Origin: Thermomonas haemolytica
GTDB lineage: Bacteria > Pseudomonadota > Gammaproteobacteria > Xanthomonadales > Xanthomonadaceae
Assembly (NCBI RefSeq): GCF_004346265.1
Contig: NZ_SMAP01000009.1
Location: 1 to 64,000, forward strand
Length of the DNA stretch: 64,000 nt
Direction of reading: 5' to 3'
Shown here in pieces: positions 30,424-40,352 of this stretch. A program made the translations under genes and the position numbers. Positions within the stretch are counted from its first letter, which is position 1, and every line of letters begins with the position of its first letter. The notes beneath the pieces were generated by a model, which was given only the letters and a program-made list of their open reading frames with translations, searched no databases and was not told the DNA's origin.

Positions 30424-30458
30424 GCCGTCCGTGGTTCGACAGGCTCACCACGAACGGC
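30424..30458. repeat. REP-like imperfect palindrome
   Basis: The segment contains CCGTGGTTCGACAGGCTCAC followed by CACGAACGGC, that is, arms CGTGGTTCGA and a near-inverse around AGGCTC. This wording (GTTCGTGGTGAGCCTGTCGAACCAC on the other strand, quoted in part) is a widespread proteobacterial intergenic REP-type palindrome. It lies in the 302-nt gap between nhaA and hmgA. I see no gene in the rest of that gap (30357-30658). Confidence 0.6.
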
Positions 30459-30658: not shown

Positions 30659-32008
30659 TCAGGCGCGGAAGTGCTTGCCCAGCCCGGCCCAGCAGGCCTG
30701 GTAGTCGTGCTGGCGGTGCGCGGCGTCCAGCGCCTGCGCCGTCGGTCGGATCACCGCGCGGGTCTCGAACATGAAGGCCATGGTGCCGGTGATGTAGTCC
30801 GGCTTCGACGTGTCGGCCGCGCTGGCCTTCTCGAAGGTCGCCGCGTCCGGGCCATGCCCGGTCATGCAGTTGTGCAGCGAGCAGCCGCCGGGCACGAAAC
30901 CGTCGGCCTTGGCGTCGTACACACCATGGATCAGGCCCATGAACTCACTGGCCACGTTGCGGTGGAACCATGGCGGCCGGAAGGTGTCCTGCGCCACCAG
31001 GATGCGCGGCGGGAAGATCACGAAGTCCATGTTGCTGGTGCCCGGGGTGTCGCTGGGCGAATGCAGCACCAGGAAGATCGACGGATCCGGGTGGTCGTAG
31101 CTGATCGAGCCGATGGTGTTGAAGCGGCGCAGGTCGTACTTGTACGGCGCGTAGTTGCCGTGCCAGGCCACCACGTCCAGCGGCGAGTGGTCGATCGGCG
31201 CGCGCCACAGGTGGCCCTGGAACTTGGCGATCAGCTCGAACTCGCCTTCCACATCCTCGAACGCCGCCTGCGGAGTGAGGAAATCCCGCGGGTTGGCCAG
31301 GCCGTTGCTGCCGATCGGCCCGAGGTCGGGCAGGCGCAGCAGCGCCCCGAAGTTCTCGCACACGTAGCCGGTCGCTCCTGCGCATCCTGCGCCCGCGACA
31401 CTCGCACATCCCTGTGCATCACGCGCCTGATCAACGTCCGGCAGCGTCACGCGGAAGCGCACGCCGCGCGGGATCACCGCGATCTCCTGCGGCTCCACGT
31501 CCAGCACGCCGAACTCCGTCTCGATATGCAGGCGGCCCAGCTGCGGGACGATCAGCAGCTCGCCGTCGGCGTCGTAGAAGAAGCGGCCCTGCATGTCGCG
31601 GTTGGCCGCGTACAGATGGATGCCGACGCCGGTGCCGGCCTGCGGGCCACCGTTGCCACCCATGGTGAACAGGCCCTCGATGAAATCGGTGGGCGCCTCT
31701 GGCAGCGGCAGCGGGTTCCAGCGCAGCTGCTCCGGGGTGACCGCACCCGAGCCGAAATCGTTGTGGAAGGCCGGCTGCGCGAACGGAGCAAAGCGGCCGT
31801 GCACCGCCGCCGGGCGGATGCGGTACAGCCAGCTGCGGCGGTTGGCATGCCGCGGCGCGGTGAACGCGGTGCCGGTCAGCTGCTCGGCGTACAGCCCGTG
31901 CGCCACCTTCTGCGGCGAATTACGCCCCACCGGCAGGGTGCCGGCAAGCGCCTCGCTCGCGAACTCGTTGCCGAAACCGCTCTGGTAGCCGTTGCTGTGG
32001 ATGCTCAT
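30659..32008 (-). CDS. hmgA: Homogentisate 1,2-dioxygenase
   Basis: Non-haem Fe(II) ring-cleaving enzyme of tyrosine and phenylalanine breakdown, producing maleylacetoacetate. The 449 residues start [19 protein letters not shown]. They contain the Fe ligands in [18 protein letters not shown] (His and Glu) and [14 protein letters not shown] (His). The protein is longer than usual because of an insertion at about residues 193-213 between LPDVDQ and GYVCENFG, where relatives have only a few residues. Start ATG 32008. The Shine-Dalgarno is weak, perhaps because a repeat inserted 20 nt upstream. It is the last gene of the hppD-DUF559-hmgA run. Confidence 0.95.
31371..31431. repeat. Repeat-like in-frame insertion inside hmgA
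   Basis: Encodes [17 protein letters not shown], which is out of character with the enzyme. On the coding strand it contains a tandem GCGCAGGAT-GCGCAGGAG and a small hairpin GCACA-GGGA-TGTGC. Length and frame keep hmgA open. Resembles a dispersed Xanthomonadaceae repeat, but identity to other copies cannot be tested here. Confidence 0.5.
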
Positions 32009-32021
32009 GGTCTGCTCGCAG

Positions 32022-32417
32022 TCAGAGCCCCTCTCTCTCCGGGAGAGGGGTTGGGGTGAGGGTTCGGTGGGCGGCCGTGTTCCAGATCGCCTCCACCACG
32101 GATTCAACGTTCGACAAGACGGCGTTGTCCCAGAACCGCAGGACATTCCAGCCCTGTGCCTCAAGCCGACGCGTTCGCACCACATCGGCGTCGGCGGCAT
32201 GCTGGCCACCGTCCAATTCGACGACCAGCTTCAATTCGACACAGCAGAAATCGGCGATGTAGGGCGGGATCGGATGCTGCCTGCGGAACTTCAATCCATC
32301 CAGCTGCCCTGCCCGCAACCGTCGCCAAAGCACGCGCTCCGCGTCGGTGGCCGCGCGACGCATGCCGCGGGCATGCCGGCGCGTCGTGGTAGGCAATGGC
32401 GGTTTGGATGTCGTCAC
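32022..32417 (-). CDS. DUF559 (Vsr-like) endonuclease domain protein
   Basis: 131 residues. Family signature blocks are [52 protein letters not shown] with the acidic/Gln-His active-site-like core, and [27 protein letters not shown]559 belongs to the PD-(D/E)XK/Vsr-like fold, so DNA cleavage is expected but not shown. GTG 32417 is the likely start. The last 12 residues ([12 protein letters not shown]) are encoded by the palindromic repeat at 32028-32062, and a second inverted copy begins 9 nt before the start codon. It interrupts the hppD-hmgA pair without polar disruption. Confidence 0.85.
32028..32062. repeat. Palindromic repeat, left copy flanking DUF559
   Basis: CCCCTCTC (32028-32035) and GAGAGGGG (32043-32050) form the palindrome, followed inward by TTGGGGTGAGGG (32051-32062). 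Inverted relative to the copy at 32427-32461. Confidence 0.9.
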
Positions 32418-32426
32418 TTCGCCGGA

Positions 32427-32461
32427 CCCTCACCCCAACCCCTCTCCCGGCGGGAGAGGGG
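32427..32461. repeat. Palindromic repeat, right copy flanking DUF559
   Basis: CCCTCACCCCAA (32427-32438) is followed outward by CCCCTCTCCC-GGC-GGGAGAGGGG (32439-32461), a 10-bp perfect stem. Ends 9 nt before the hppD stop codon. Confidence 0.9.
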
Positions 32462-32470
32462 CTGTCCACG

Positions 32471-33556
32471 TCACAACACCCCGCGGCGCATCTGGTCGCG
32501 CTCGATGCTCTCGAACAGCGCCTGGAAGTTGCCTTCGCCGAAGCCCTCGTTACCCTTGCGCTGGATGATCTCGAAGAAGATCGGGCCGAACGCGTTCTGG
32601 GTGAAGATCTGCAGCAGCTTGCGCGTCTTCGTCTCCGGGTCGGCGTCGATCAGGATCTTGTTCCGGGCCAGTCGCGGCACGTCCTCGCCGTGGTTCGGCA
32701 CGCGCTGGTCGATCACCTCGAAGTAGGTGTCCGGGGTGTCGAGGAACTCCACGCCCGCCGCGCGCATCCGCTCCACCGTGGTGTAGATGTCGTCGGTGAA
32801 CAGCGCGATGTGCTGGATGCCCTCGCCCTTGTACTCGCGCAGGTATTCGTTGATCTGGCTCTTCTCGTCGCTGGACTCGTTCAGCGGGATGCGCACCACG
32901 CCGTCCGGTGCGGTCATCGCCTTCGACAGCAGGCCGGTCTTGGCGCCCTTGATGTCGAAGTAGCGGATCTCGCGGAAGTTGAACAGCTTCTCGTAGTAGT
33001 CCGACCACTTCGCCATGTTGCCCACGAACAGGTTGTGGGTGAGGTGGTCGATGAAGGTCAGGCCGAAGCCCTTGGGGTGCTGGTCCACGCCCGGCAGCGG
33101 CAGGTAATCGGCGTACAGATCCTCGCGGCCGTCGTCGACCAGATACAGCATGCAGTCGCCGATGCCCTTGATCGCCGGGGTGTCCACCGCGCCGGTTTCC
33201 GGCTTGTGGTCGGCCTTGGCGCCGCCGTTGGCCAGCACGTGCGCCAGCACCTCGGCGGTGGGCTTTTTGAAGCGGATCGCGAAGCCGCAGGCCGACGGCC
33301 CATGCTGGGCGGCGAAATCGGCGGCGAACGAATCCTCGGACTCGTTCAGCAGGAAATTGATGGTGCCCTGGCGGAACAGGGTGATCGGCCGCGCCTTGTG
33401 CCGCGCCACCGCGGTGAAGCCCAGCTTCTCCAGGTAGTCGCGCATGCGCGGGCCCTGCCCGGCCGGCGCGGCGAACTCGACGAACTCGAACCCGTTGATG
33501 CCCATCGGGTTGTCGAAGGTGGTCGGCTGCATGCCAAGATTGGGTTGCGCGTTCAT
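32471..33556 (-). CDS. hppD: 4-hydroxyphenylpyruvate dioxygenase
   Basis: Fe(II) enzyme turning 4-hydroxyphenylpyruvate into homogentisate. The 361 residues form two VOC-type halves. The iron ligands are seen in FIDHLTHNLFVGNM (His), GIQHIALFTDDI (His) and GPIFFEIIQRKGNEGFGEGNF (Glu), with the C-terminal gating helix complete. It is first in the operon with DUF559 and hmgA. It is transcribed from a promoter whose spacer holds a MarR-type operator, and is divergent from the marR gene. Confidence 0.97.
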   Translation of the reverse strand: MNAQPNLGMQPTTFDNPMGINGFEFVEFAAPAGQGPRMRDYLEKLGFTAVARHKARPITLFRQGTINFLLNESEDSFAADFAAQHGPSACGFAIRFKKPTAEVLAHVLANGGAKADHKPETGAVDTPAIKGIGDCMLYLVDDGREDLYADYLPLPGVDQHPKGFGLTFIDHLTHNLFVGNMAKWSDYYEKLFNFREIRYFDIKGAKTGLLSKAMTAPDGVVRIPLNESSDEKSQINEYLREYKGEGIQHIALFTDDIYTTVERMRAAGVEFLDTPDTYFEVIDQRVPNHGEDVPRLARNKILIDADPETKTRKLLQIFTQNAFGPIFFEIIQRKGNEGFGEGNFQALFESIERDQMRRGVL

Positions 33557-38957: not shown

Positions 38958-40352
38958 ATGAGCAAGAAGTTCCTCCTGCCCGACCTCGGCGAAGGCCTGC
39001 CGGACGCCACCATCGTGGAGTGGCACGTCAAGGAAGGCGACGTGATCCGCCTGGACGAGAACCTGGTCTCGATGGAGACCGCCAAGGCGGTGGTCGACGT
39101 GCCCTCGCCGGTTTCCGGCAAGGTGCTGAAGCTGGCCGGCGGCCCGGGCGACGTGATCGTCACCGGCACCTTGCTGGCCGAGTTCGAGATCGACCCCAAC
39201 CTGCCGCAGCGCGCGGAAGGCCAGGACACCGGCCACCACCACGGCCCGTCCCACGCCGCGCCGGAAGCGGCCGCGCCCGCACCGGCGGCGGAGACCAAGA
39301 CCGTGCCGATCGAGGAGGACGCCGGCACCGTGGTCGGCGCGATGCAGGTCGGCAACGCGGTGGTGAGCGAAGCCGCGGTCGCGGTGGGCGGCGTCAAGGC
39401 CGTGCCTGCGGTGCGCGCGATGGCCCGCAAACTGGGCGTGGACATCACCCGCGTGCGCGCCAGCGGCCCGGACGGCACGGTGACGATGGACGACGTGAAG
39501 CGCGCCGCCGCGGACGGCTCGCTCCTGCTCCCCTCTCCCACCGGGAGAGGGGCTGGGGGTGAGGGTGCGCAGCACCATGCAGCCACTTCCCGTAACGAAC
39601 CCTCATCCGCCCTGCGGGCACCTTCTCCCGGGGGGAGAAGGGAAGAGCAGCAGCGCAGCACGCTGTCGCAGTCCGGCAAGCCGATGCGCACCCAGCCGCC
39701 GGGCGTGGCCGCGTCCGGCCAGCCCGAGCAGCTCAAGGGCGTGCGCCGCAACATGGCGCGGGTGATGGCCGACGCCCACGCCAAGGTGGTGCCCACCACG
39801 CTGGTGGACGATGCCGACCTGCACGCCTGGATCGGCAAGCAGGACATCACCGCGCGCCTGATCCGCGCGATGGTGACGGCCTGCAAGACGGTGCCGGCGC
39901 TGAACGCCTGGTTCGACGGCGAGACCCTCAGCCGCACGCTGCACCCGCAGGTGGACATCGGCATCGCGGTGGACACCGACGACGGCCTGTTCGTGCCCGC
40001 CCTGCGCAACGCCGACATGCTGGACGCGCGCGGCATCCGCGAGGGCATCAACCGCCTGCGTGCGCAGGTGGAGAGCCGCACCATCCCGGCCAGCGAGCTG
40101 TCGGGCTACACCATCTCGCTGTCCAACTTCGGCATGTTCGCCGGCCGCTACGCGACGCCGGTGGTGGTGCCGCCGTGCGTGGCCATCGTCGGCGCCGGCA
40201 AGCTGTGCCACGACGTGGTCGCGGTGATCGGCGGCATCGAGGTGCACCGCCGCCTGCCGATCTCGCTGACCTTCGACCACCGCGCCTGCACCGGCGGCGA
40301 AGCCGCGCGCTTCCTCAAGGCGCTGCTGGACGACCTGGCGCTGCCGCAATAA
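38958..40352 (+). CDS. 2-oxoacid dehydrogenase E2 (dihydrolipoamide acyltransferase)
   Basis: 464-residue acyltransferase core. The lipoyl domain is residues 1-77 with lipoyl-lysine K43 in METAKAVVD. An Ala/Pro linker with a His cluster follows, then a peripheral subunit-binding domain (about 148-185) and a C-terminal catalytic domain from about 255. The active-site motif is FDHRACTGGEAARF, so the usual DHRxxDG aspartate is a threonine. Residues 191-229 (LPSPTGRGAGGEG and following) are encoded by inserted palindromic repeats, in frame, in the second linker. E3 is not in the window. Confidence 0.93.
   Translation: MSKKFLLPDLGEGLPDATIVEWHVKEGDVIRLDENLVSMETAKAVVDVPSPVSGKVLKLAGGPGDVIVTGTLLAEFEIDPNLPQRAEGQDTGHHHGPSHAAPEAAAPAPAAETKTVPIEEDAGTVVGAMQVGNAVVSEAAVAVGGVKAVPAVRAMARKLGVDITRVRASGPDGTVTMDDVKRAAADGSLLLPSPTGRGAGGEGAQHHAATSRNEPSSALRAPSPGGRREEQQRSTLSQSGKPMRTQPPGVAASGQPEQLKGVRRNMARVMADAHAKVVPTTLVDDADLHAWIGKQDITARLIRAMVTACKTVPALNAWFDGETLSRTLHPQVDIGIAVDTDDGLFVPALRNADMLDARGIREGINRLRAQVESRTIPASELSGYTISLSNFGMFAGRYATPVVVPPCVAIVGAGKLCHDVVAVIGGIEVHRRLPISLTFDHRACTGGEAARFLKALLDDLALPQ
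39530..39641. repeat. Composite palindromic repeat inserted in frame in the E2 gene
   Basis: Left half: CCCCTCTCCC-ACC-GGGAGAGGGG (39530-39552, the three central bases unpaired) then CTGGGGGTGAGGG (39553-39565). Right half: CCCTCATCCGCCC (39600-39612) then CCTTCTCCC and GGGAGAAGG (39621-39641). Palindromes are outside and tails face inward, the same architecture as the DUF559 unit but without a gene. The left half matches the DUF559-flanking repeat closely; the right half is a sister repeat. Confidence 0.85.

Follow-up and report, generated by a model that had tools for sequence, protein, structure and literature searches.

DUF559 nuclease genes and triplex-type inverted repeats as probable long-term partners, with a proposed role of the nuclease in the spread of repeat pairs

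The DUF559 gene between hppD and hmgA

Within the window, by which we mean the whole 64-kb stretch of DNA that was analyzed, a gene for a Vsr-like endonuclease of the DUF559 family lies between the host genes hmgA and hppD, with all three on the minus strand (Table 1). The family assignment is based on the PF04480 profile, which matched the protein with 132 bits (E=1e-38; curated cut-off 20.6). One DUF559 gene was found in the 2.59-Mb genome, and it is flanked by two of the six exact copies of a 20-nt repeat core present genome-wide; with up to three mismatches allowed, the core had two matches in the window, both at the DUF559 gene, where 0.01 would be expected. We scored such flanks by aligning the 250 nt on each side of the DUF559 domain with each other in inverted orientation and taking the best alignment, with values of at least 20 counted as positive. 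The score at this gene was 34.5, the highest value among 1,238 other windows of the 64-kb stretch was 17.5, and the two inverted copies described in an earlier, sequence-only reading of this DNA are therefore real. Their arms reach 66 nt at 79% identity (32026-32091 and 32398-32463).

Table 1. Positions of the DUF559 gene, its flanking genes and the repeat copies in the window
Feature	Position	Strand	Remarks
DUF559 (PF04480) Vsr-like endonuclease gene	32022-32417	-	131 aa, GTG start, Pfam match
Downstream repeat copy, type T1, tail facing the gene	32026-32067	+	42 nt, hairpin + G-rich third strand
Upstream repeat copy, type T1	32422-32463	-	42 nt; ends 4 nt before GTG at 32417
hmgA, homogentisate 1,2-dioxygenase, flanking host gene	30659-32008	-	profile match; start codon from sequence
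hppD, 4-hydroxyphenylpyruvate dioxygenase, flanking host gene	32471-33556	-	profile match
T1 repeat, left half of gene-less inverted pair	39528-39567	+	sequence match
T3 repeat, right half of that inverted pair	39598-39643	-	sequence match
E2 acyltransferase gene (2-oxoacid_dh, Biotin_lipoyl, E3_binding) with T1/T3 pair in linker	38958-40352	+	

The same reading had one copy ending 9 nt before the GTG start, which holds for the 20-nt core of the upstream copy, the full copy lying closer (Table 1). It also had the C-terminus of the protein encoded by the other copy. At this locus that is correct, as the last residues are encoded mostly by the downstream copy and the stop codon (32022-32024) lies just past it. 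It did not survive as a rule: among 66 of the 81 loci whose repeat arms were taken, the stop was inside the downstream repeat in 28, beyond it in 26 and before it in 12, so that a C-terminus encoded within the repeat is common and no more than that. Folded as single-stranded DNA, the window copies form hairpins of -9.3 and -11.9 kcal/mol (z -1.8 and -1.9). A different dispersed repeat is present at 30434-30457 on the plus strand as an exact copy of GTTCGACAGGCTCACCACGAACGG; in a close relative (G157), this GTTCGACAGGCTCACCACGAACGG repeat occupies the hppD-hmgA gap where the window has DUF559.

An alignment of 191 DUF559 proteins contains five near-invariant residues, E15 (189 rows), D44 (190), E55 (190), D57 (191) and H61 (189), and we take the resulting E..D..ExDG..H set to be of the catalytic type that we associate with Vsr-like nucleases. 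A relative with a solved structure is PDB 3hrl (E=1.3e-42), and there was a weak match (E=0.005) to PDB 3r3p, a "Mobile intron protein", which is presumably I-Bth0305I of the EDxHD family. The Vsr profile itself, TIGR00632, gave 15.9 bits against its cut-off of 97.85, and PADLOC returned no defense-system match. YcjD, the DUF559 protein of Escherichia coli, had been placed in the PD-(D/E)XK superfamily by 2005, with a YcjD profile detecting Vsr (PMC1189080, excerpt), and DUF559 is likewise counted among PD-(D/E)XK nucleases in a study in which the Caulobacter DUF559 protein VsrA was responsible for an SOS response when a cytosine methyltransferase was missing (PMC12907096, excerpt).

Many genera of the Xanthomonadaceae have a DUF559 gene with T1 repeats in the hppD-hmgA gap. 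The genes at this locus form nearly one clade (32 rows, 31 with T1, and 2 changes of locus on the tree compared to a shuffled mean of 30.1), with about 29 distinct loci represented, as L089/L227 and L093/L239 look like the same genomes and L070/L086 probably are. Since this near-single clade extends across so many genera, the locus looks inherited, and judging from the sequences DUF559 appears to be an old resident of the gap. Among 25 genomes of the genus, DUF559 is in the gap in two (that of the window and G158) and absent in 22; in G161 a contig ends in a repeat at the gap, and this genome was counted in neither class. A lone repeat has been retained in the gap in G163 and G152. We read the genus pattern as inheritance with frequent loss, and infer loss rather than gain, which the tree cannot prove. 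A recent insertion of DUF559 at this site was considered and rejected, given its family-wide presence there in nearly one clade. Nor is the earlier proposal of a small mobile element that entered the gap between the two host genes supported by this clade. The differences between genomes at the gap resemble replacements rather than clean insertions, although the relatives compared may be too distant to decide.

Inverted frames around DUF559 genes and the design of the repeats

The inverted frame is not restricted to the window. It was scored positive at 20 of 21 DUF559 loci (the window and 20 others in the family) versus nine of the 8,386 background windows of those loci, and at 79 of 111 scored loci in a wider Xanthomonadaceae sample, composed mostly of the best-scoring among the DUF559 matches listed, only part of which were fetched. 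In a collection that represents each bacterial or archaeal species by a single genome, 51 of 79 usable loci were positive versus none of 8,749 background windows. This sample was the best 80 of at least 568 confirmed relatives (52 of 80 before removal of L102, an artifact of a run of N); some of its loci also belong to the family set (e.g., L088 and L006 are the same locus), and it includes four loci close to contig ends. None of these samples was drawn at random, and all are weighted toward proteins closely related to the Xanthomonadaceae type. Within that scope, the expectation that DUF559 genes are flanked by inverted copies far above background was supported, and the frame is often found in several phyla, positive loci beyond the Proteobacteria being, by record title, those of Gastranaerophilales, a Nitrospirae MAG, Desulfobacterales, Geobacter and Candidatus Binatia. 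No frame was detected at 32 of the 111 family loci and 28 of the 79 collection loci, about 30% of the DUF559 genes. Ten control GIY-YIG loci, taken as UvrC based on their long frames, scored at most 13.

Small stand-alone GIY-YIG loci of the genus behaved differently from the UvrC-type controls (0/10), in that five of 20 sampled are framed by inverted repeats with scores of at least 27 (L300, L301, L305, L312 and L325, from G163, G159, G152, G151 and G154, respectively); L310, one of the 20, is clipped at a contig end and misplaced. The frames are CGTCAT..GCGAAGGC.. palindromes, with one locus framed by GTTCGACAGGCTCACCACGAACGG, and there may be a second nuclease-repeat partnership, based on GIY-YIG. 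Two other observations concern the genomic setting of DUF559 genes. At G100:C73:39262-40201 (partly in L237) two tandem DUF559 matches lie approximately 300 nt apart, and in Legionella pneumophila the hotspots of mutation and recombination include three repeated segments with a transposase and a DUF559 gene (PMC12308824, excerpt).

The repeats at different loci fall into several types: T1, as in the window; T2, CCCTCCCCTTCAAGGGG...; T3, which has an extra small hairpin and the sequence GGAGAAGG...GGATGAGGG; and T4, T5 and T6. Their polarity is fixed. In all 81 arms taken from the 129 loci considered (score of at least 20, free of N, length up to 70 nt), the gene-facing half has more G than C. 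At the 71 of these 81 loci with a clear hairpin we compared the gene-facing tail with the mirror image of the purine arm of the hairpin, allowing T opposite A (T-A-T triads). The third strand agreed with its own mirrored arm at 0.947 versus 0.805 for the arms of other loci, and for the 26 distinct arms the values were 0.958 and 0.804 (p=3e-8). With the first locus of each distinct arm considered, the mirror match was full in 23, 0.90 in L008 and L118, and 0.50 in L144. The mirror orientation was better than the direct orientation at 37 of the 71 loci, equal at 31 and worse at three; the direct orientation also exceeded the arms of other loci, although to a lesser degree (0.870 versus 0.811). 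By sequence, a class II triplex pattern is present in both flanking copies of the window and in both halves of a pair at 39.5 kb.

Such covariation has the form expected of a class II intrastrand triplex, in which a pyrimidine arm, a purine arm and an antiparallel purine third strand would associate, and it points to a triplex based on the fact that neither a quadruplex nor a plain hairpin would predict it. A G-quadruplex was considered as the conserved feature because GGGAGAGGGGTTGGGGTGAGGG has four G-tracts; it leaves the mirrored purine arm unpredicted, and the mirror test favors the triplex. On closely similar E. coli oligonucleotides the triplex fold has been measured by CD and NMR, although it was not observed as a stable fold in cells (PMC4666352, excerpt). 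A reversed control pattern gave 2 and 3 matches at two mismatches and none at one mismatch in the genome of the window, and up to 45 matches in other genomes of the family (e.g., 41 in G022, 42 in G029 and 35 in G040), as the repeat variants are themselves mirror-symmetric.

The repeat sequences differ between loci and track the protein tree. On the tree of the 191 proteins, repeat type changes 18 times over 111 typed rows, compared to a shuffled mean of 48 and minimum of 44; removal of the hppD rows left 18 changes versus 45 in shuffled data (80 rows). The tree is built on few columns and has many open forks, 80 rows with no or mixed repeat type are uncounted, and a match on one side was enough to assign a type, with both sides T1 in 23 of the 47 T1-type loci. 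For pairs of proteins from different genomes, a repeat was shared by 96% of those at least 70% identical (24 pairs), 46% at 60-70% identity (167 pairs), 8% at 55-60% (689 pairs) and 2-5% below 55%; among close relatives these values are inflated, since shared descent brings shared flanks. DUF559 pairs within one genome share a repeat in 5% of cases (19 pairs). Six genomes were sampled more deeply; their paralogs are 38-63% identical and have mostly different repeats, or in some cases none; G032, for example, has four DUF559 genes with four different repeats and one gene with no frame.

Repeat copies away from the DUF559 gene

The number of repeats in a genome is associated with the presence of DUF559, which was found in 83 of 149 family genomes. 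At least three T1 core copies (at most one mismatch) are present in 60 of the 83 genomes with DUF559 versus one of the 66 genomes where it was not found, so that T1 is abundant almost only alongside the gene, as the earlier reading would lead one to expect. Across the 13 genera that have both kinds of genome, the mean number of T1 copies in DUF559-positive genomes exceeds that of the others in 11, falls short of it in one and equals it in one, and permutation within genera reached the observed value in none of 5,000 trials. There is also specificity for type: at least three T1 copies were counted in 35 of the 36 genomes that have a T1-type gene, versus 15 of 29 DUF559-positive genomes with no T1-type gene among those sampled (gene fetching was partial), and all seven genomes with a T2-type gene have at least four T2 copies, versus four of the 58 other genomes in which DUF559 genes were sampled. 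G020 has T2 copies approximately 110 nt away from a DUF559 gene that was not fetched. The T1 and T2 counts include the copies flanking DUF559 genes. One genome, G045, has 10 T1 copies and no detected DUF559 gene.

Within the genus, repeat matches, which include those from flanks and paralogs, number 39 in G163, 37 in G158 and G161, 33 in G151, 29 in G000, 25 in G166 and 21 in G159, with 5-15 in each of the remaining 18 genomes. DUF559 was expected in the richest genomes, and of these seven it is present in G000, G151, G158 and G163 (one-sided p=0.002); it was not found in G159, G166 or G161, the last having its contig end in a repeat at the expected place.

Many copies occur as inverted pairs with no gene between them. 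In the window, a T1/T3 pair (39528-39643) lies in frame within the linker of an E2 acyltransferase. This linker was located in 21 of 23 genus genomes, with the pair present in five (T1/T3 in the genome of the window, T1/T1 in G158, G161 and G163, and another combination in G167) and the linker pair-free in 16, where it is GC-rich and 61-76 nt long; the reading frame is kept in all 21 (lengths a multiple of three plus one). Between sucB and lpd, located in all 24 genomes (G150 has a 1-nt gap), seven genomes have a pair, which is T1/T3 in G000, G158, G163, G155 and G159 and of other types in G166 and G167. The pair is absent from the same place in the rest, and most of the pair-free gaps have a terminator-like hairpin instead. 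Pairs were also seen in genomes with no detected DUF559, namely at sucB-lpd in G155, G159, G166 and G167 and in the E2 linker in G161 and G167. Based on these two sites, different types recur at the same places in genomes with and without DUF559.

Of the seven T1 copies away from the gene in the genome of the window, six have an inverted partner, mostly T3, when judged by eye, and three when judged by a strict pattern; the pair at 39.5 kb comes in addition to these. The repeat-rich genome G006 has 143 copies; in the 20 loci fetched from it, chosen partly for arrays, 22 of the 39 T1 copies have a T3 partner no more than 170 nt away by the strict pattern. Many of its copies are in direct tandem arrays with a spacing of approximately 140 bp and others are solitary. 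No target-site duplication was found at the three loci compared, where the element replaces sequence rather than splitting it, although the genomes compared may be too far apart for this to be decisive. At its left end the sucB-lpd pair looks, by eye, similar to the 5' end of the DUF559 unit (GGTACGGCGAAGCGACGAC and GGTCCGGCGAAGTGACGAC), as though it had arisen from the unit by internal deletion. It appears that the mobile part is the repeat pair with no gene, rather than the gene.

Repeats of this kind have been known in E. coli since the 1990s as BoxC, PIT or triplex repeats, with 3,610 copies of BoxC/PIT/TM_ECO in 262 proteobacterial genomes, 23 of them in E. coli K-12, and five cases of close inverted BoxC pairs (PMC4666352, excerpt). 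According to the same excerpt, triplex motifs are tied to instability, no transposase or integrase remnants were seen around BoxC/TM_ECO, and the spread of the motif was left unexplained. DUF559 and YcjD are not mentioned in the excerpted text of PMC4666352, and among the matches listed from the open-licence PMC literature none linked DUF559 or YcjD to BoxC, PIT or triplex repeats. The E. coli K-12 gene ycjD is nevertheless a DUF559 gene, whose product shares 49% identity with the window protein across 112 columns. A strict BoxC copy lies approximately 170 nt past the 3' end of ycjD, a degenerate copy lies over its stop codon, and no repeat of the BoxC kind was seen on its upstream side in E. 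coli. The ycjD-side copy of K-12 matches the strict TM_ECO pattern, CCCTCNCCCN3-6GGGNGAGGGN3GGGNGAGGG. The T1 copies of the window do not, since the right copy and the T1 at 39.5 kb match only with a longer second loop (by 1 nt in the right copy) and the left copy is unmatched. Judged by sequence, the window repeat type is close to E. coli BoxC/PIT.

Within E. coli, ycjD and its surroundings are covered in 3,364 of 5,426 genomes. Chromosomes listed with ycjD have 15-31 BoxC-like places (median 22 in 37) and those listed as lacking it have 2-23 (median 6.5 in 22), a difference that is confounded with phylogroup and is based on a 634-base query that may include non-BoxC matches (a small record, H120, was dropped). 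Some E. coli strains without ycjD keep 10-23 BoxC-like places. E. coli was considered as a clean empty-site test; the two ycjD-less strains inspected have other genes beside fabI (PMC12817139, excerpt), so neither offers a clean empty site.

DUF559 and the spread of the repeats

The association between DUF559 and the repeats is firm. We consider it probable that DUF559 and repeats able to form intrastrand triplexes are long-term partners, and we propose nuclease-driven spread of the repeat pairs, since the brackets around the gene and the co-occurrence across genomes make DUF559 a good candidate for the spreader. Each DUF559 lineage would be bracketed by its own repeat, with the hairpin outside and the G-rich third strand facing the gene, and further copies of that repeat would be scattered through the genome, often in inverted pairs that lack a gene and resemble REPINs or MITEs. 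In the model that these data favor most, the Vsr-like PD-(D/E)XK enzyme would recognize the folded repeat, as a hairpin or triplex on exposed single strands, and nick or cut there, after which repair or strand transfer may copy the inverted pair to further sites that are GC-rich and under weak constraint. The gene itself would resemble that of a RAYT in having one copy per type at a fixed, inherited locus and in often being lost. That DUF559 moves the repeats, through their recognition, cleavage and copying, is what we infer from these patterns.

The best reading of the data is a partnership similar to that of RAYTs and REPINs, with an unrelated Vsr-like nuclease in the place of the transposase. 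The sequence-only reading had likened the unit to REP-associated tyrosine transposases, and the comparison is apt given the inverted doublets, tandem arrays and enzyme-specific repeat classes. Both systems have distinct single-copy enzymes with their own palindromic repeat class nearby, and both show largely vertical, species-level inheritance together with doublets and arrays (PMC3116915, excerpt). Unlike DUF559, which is a Vsr-like PD-(D/E)XK protein, the RAYT enzyme is a Y1 HUH transposase; in addition, the DUF559 repeats have a third, mirror strand, and the GTAG/CGTC tags of REPs (PMC3733652, excerpt) are absent in the four copies that were checked here. BoxC/PIT/TM_ECO shares the design of hairpin and third strand as well as the inverted pairs, but no mobility genes are reported around the motif (PMC4666352, excerpt), whereas here an enzyme is linked to it. 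With Vsr (TIGR00632) the window DUF559 shares weak sequence similarity and a superfamily, yet it falls far under the Vsr cut-off and is linked to repeats. EDxHD homing endonucleases (3r3p) give a weak profile match and DUF559 is likewise sporadic at one site; in contrast, no intron or intein was seen at DUF559, which is framed by a dispersed repeat.

Several other explanations must be weighed against this partnership. DUF559 could be a Vsr-like surveillance or repair nuclease that processes or restrains triplex repeats multiplied by something else, which would fit the role of VsrA of Caulobacter behind an SOS response without its cytosine methyltransferase (PMC12907096, excerpt), the instability tied to triplex motifs (PMC4666352, excerpt) and the genomes that retain repeats with no detected DUF559 gene. 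We regard this as unlikely, because restraint predicts more repeats where the enzyme is missing and the opposite was observed, and because shared mobilization better explains both the inverted pairs at the enzyme's own gene and the specificity for type. Homing, in which DUF559 would cut the empty hppD-hmgA gap or other single sites and its gene would be copied in by repair with the repeats as homology or recognition sites, is in our view quite improbable. It agrees with the presence of the gene at one site in many genera and its sporadic absence there, and with the weak similarity to 3r3p; the near-single clade of the hppD-locus genes is as expected of vertical descent, although single-site homing could give the same, and dozens of gene-less copies elsewhere would be left unexplained.

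That RAYT or Y1 transposases mobilize the repeats, with DUF559 a bystander, would account for an architecture that is the same as that of RAYT/REPIN systems (PMC3116915, excerpt), and Y1_Tnp, which covers RAYT and IS200-like enzymes, is common (102 of 149 family genomes), with T1 copies most numerous in genomes having both Y1 and DUF559 (median 13). Against this, Y1_Tnp (PF01797) has no match in the genome of the window, at least three T1 copies occur in none of the 38 genomes with Y1 and no DUF559 versus 11 of the 19 with DUF559 and no Y1, and there is no link between Y1 and T1 number within genera (seven up, four down, two ties), which together make it a very remote prospect. Still harder to credit is an explanation in terms of ordinary bidirectional transcription terminators, with the repeats bordering a short gene by chance. 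The hairpins do lie at gene ends, and the sucB-lpd elements occupy the place of a terminator-like hairpin in many relatives. The uniform inward polarity (81/81), the covariation of the third strand and the protein-specific sequence would not be expected of terminators, however, pairs also lie inside coding sequence, and the ten UvrC-type controls stayed at low scores.

Returning to the partnership of DUF559 and its repeats, a more far-reaching version, which we offer tentatively and hold as possible rather than probable, is that DUF559 is a triplex-specific nuclease and forms, with the triplex-ended pairs, a phylum-spanning class of miniature mobile DNA in which a nick or break followed by repair-copying replaces GC-rich segments. 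If true, the mechanism of spreading would be unlike HUH or DDE transposition, with E. coli BoxC as its best-known trace. The covariation over 26 distinct arms is comparative evidence that the triplex fold itself matters in nature, beyond any hairpin or G-quadruplex. The repeats were known with no linked enzyme (PMC4666352, excerpt) and DUF559 was a domain of unknown function; this analysis joins the two, and the link offers a candidate explanation, open to direct test, for the spread of a common class of bacterial repeats, including in E. coli K-12.
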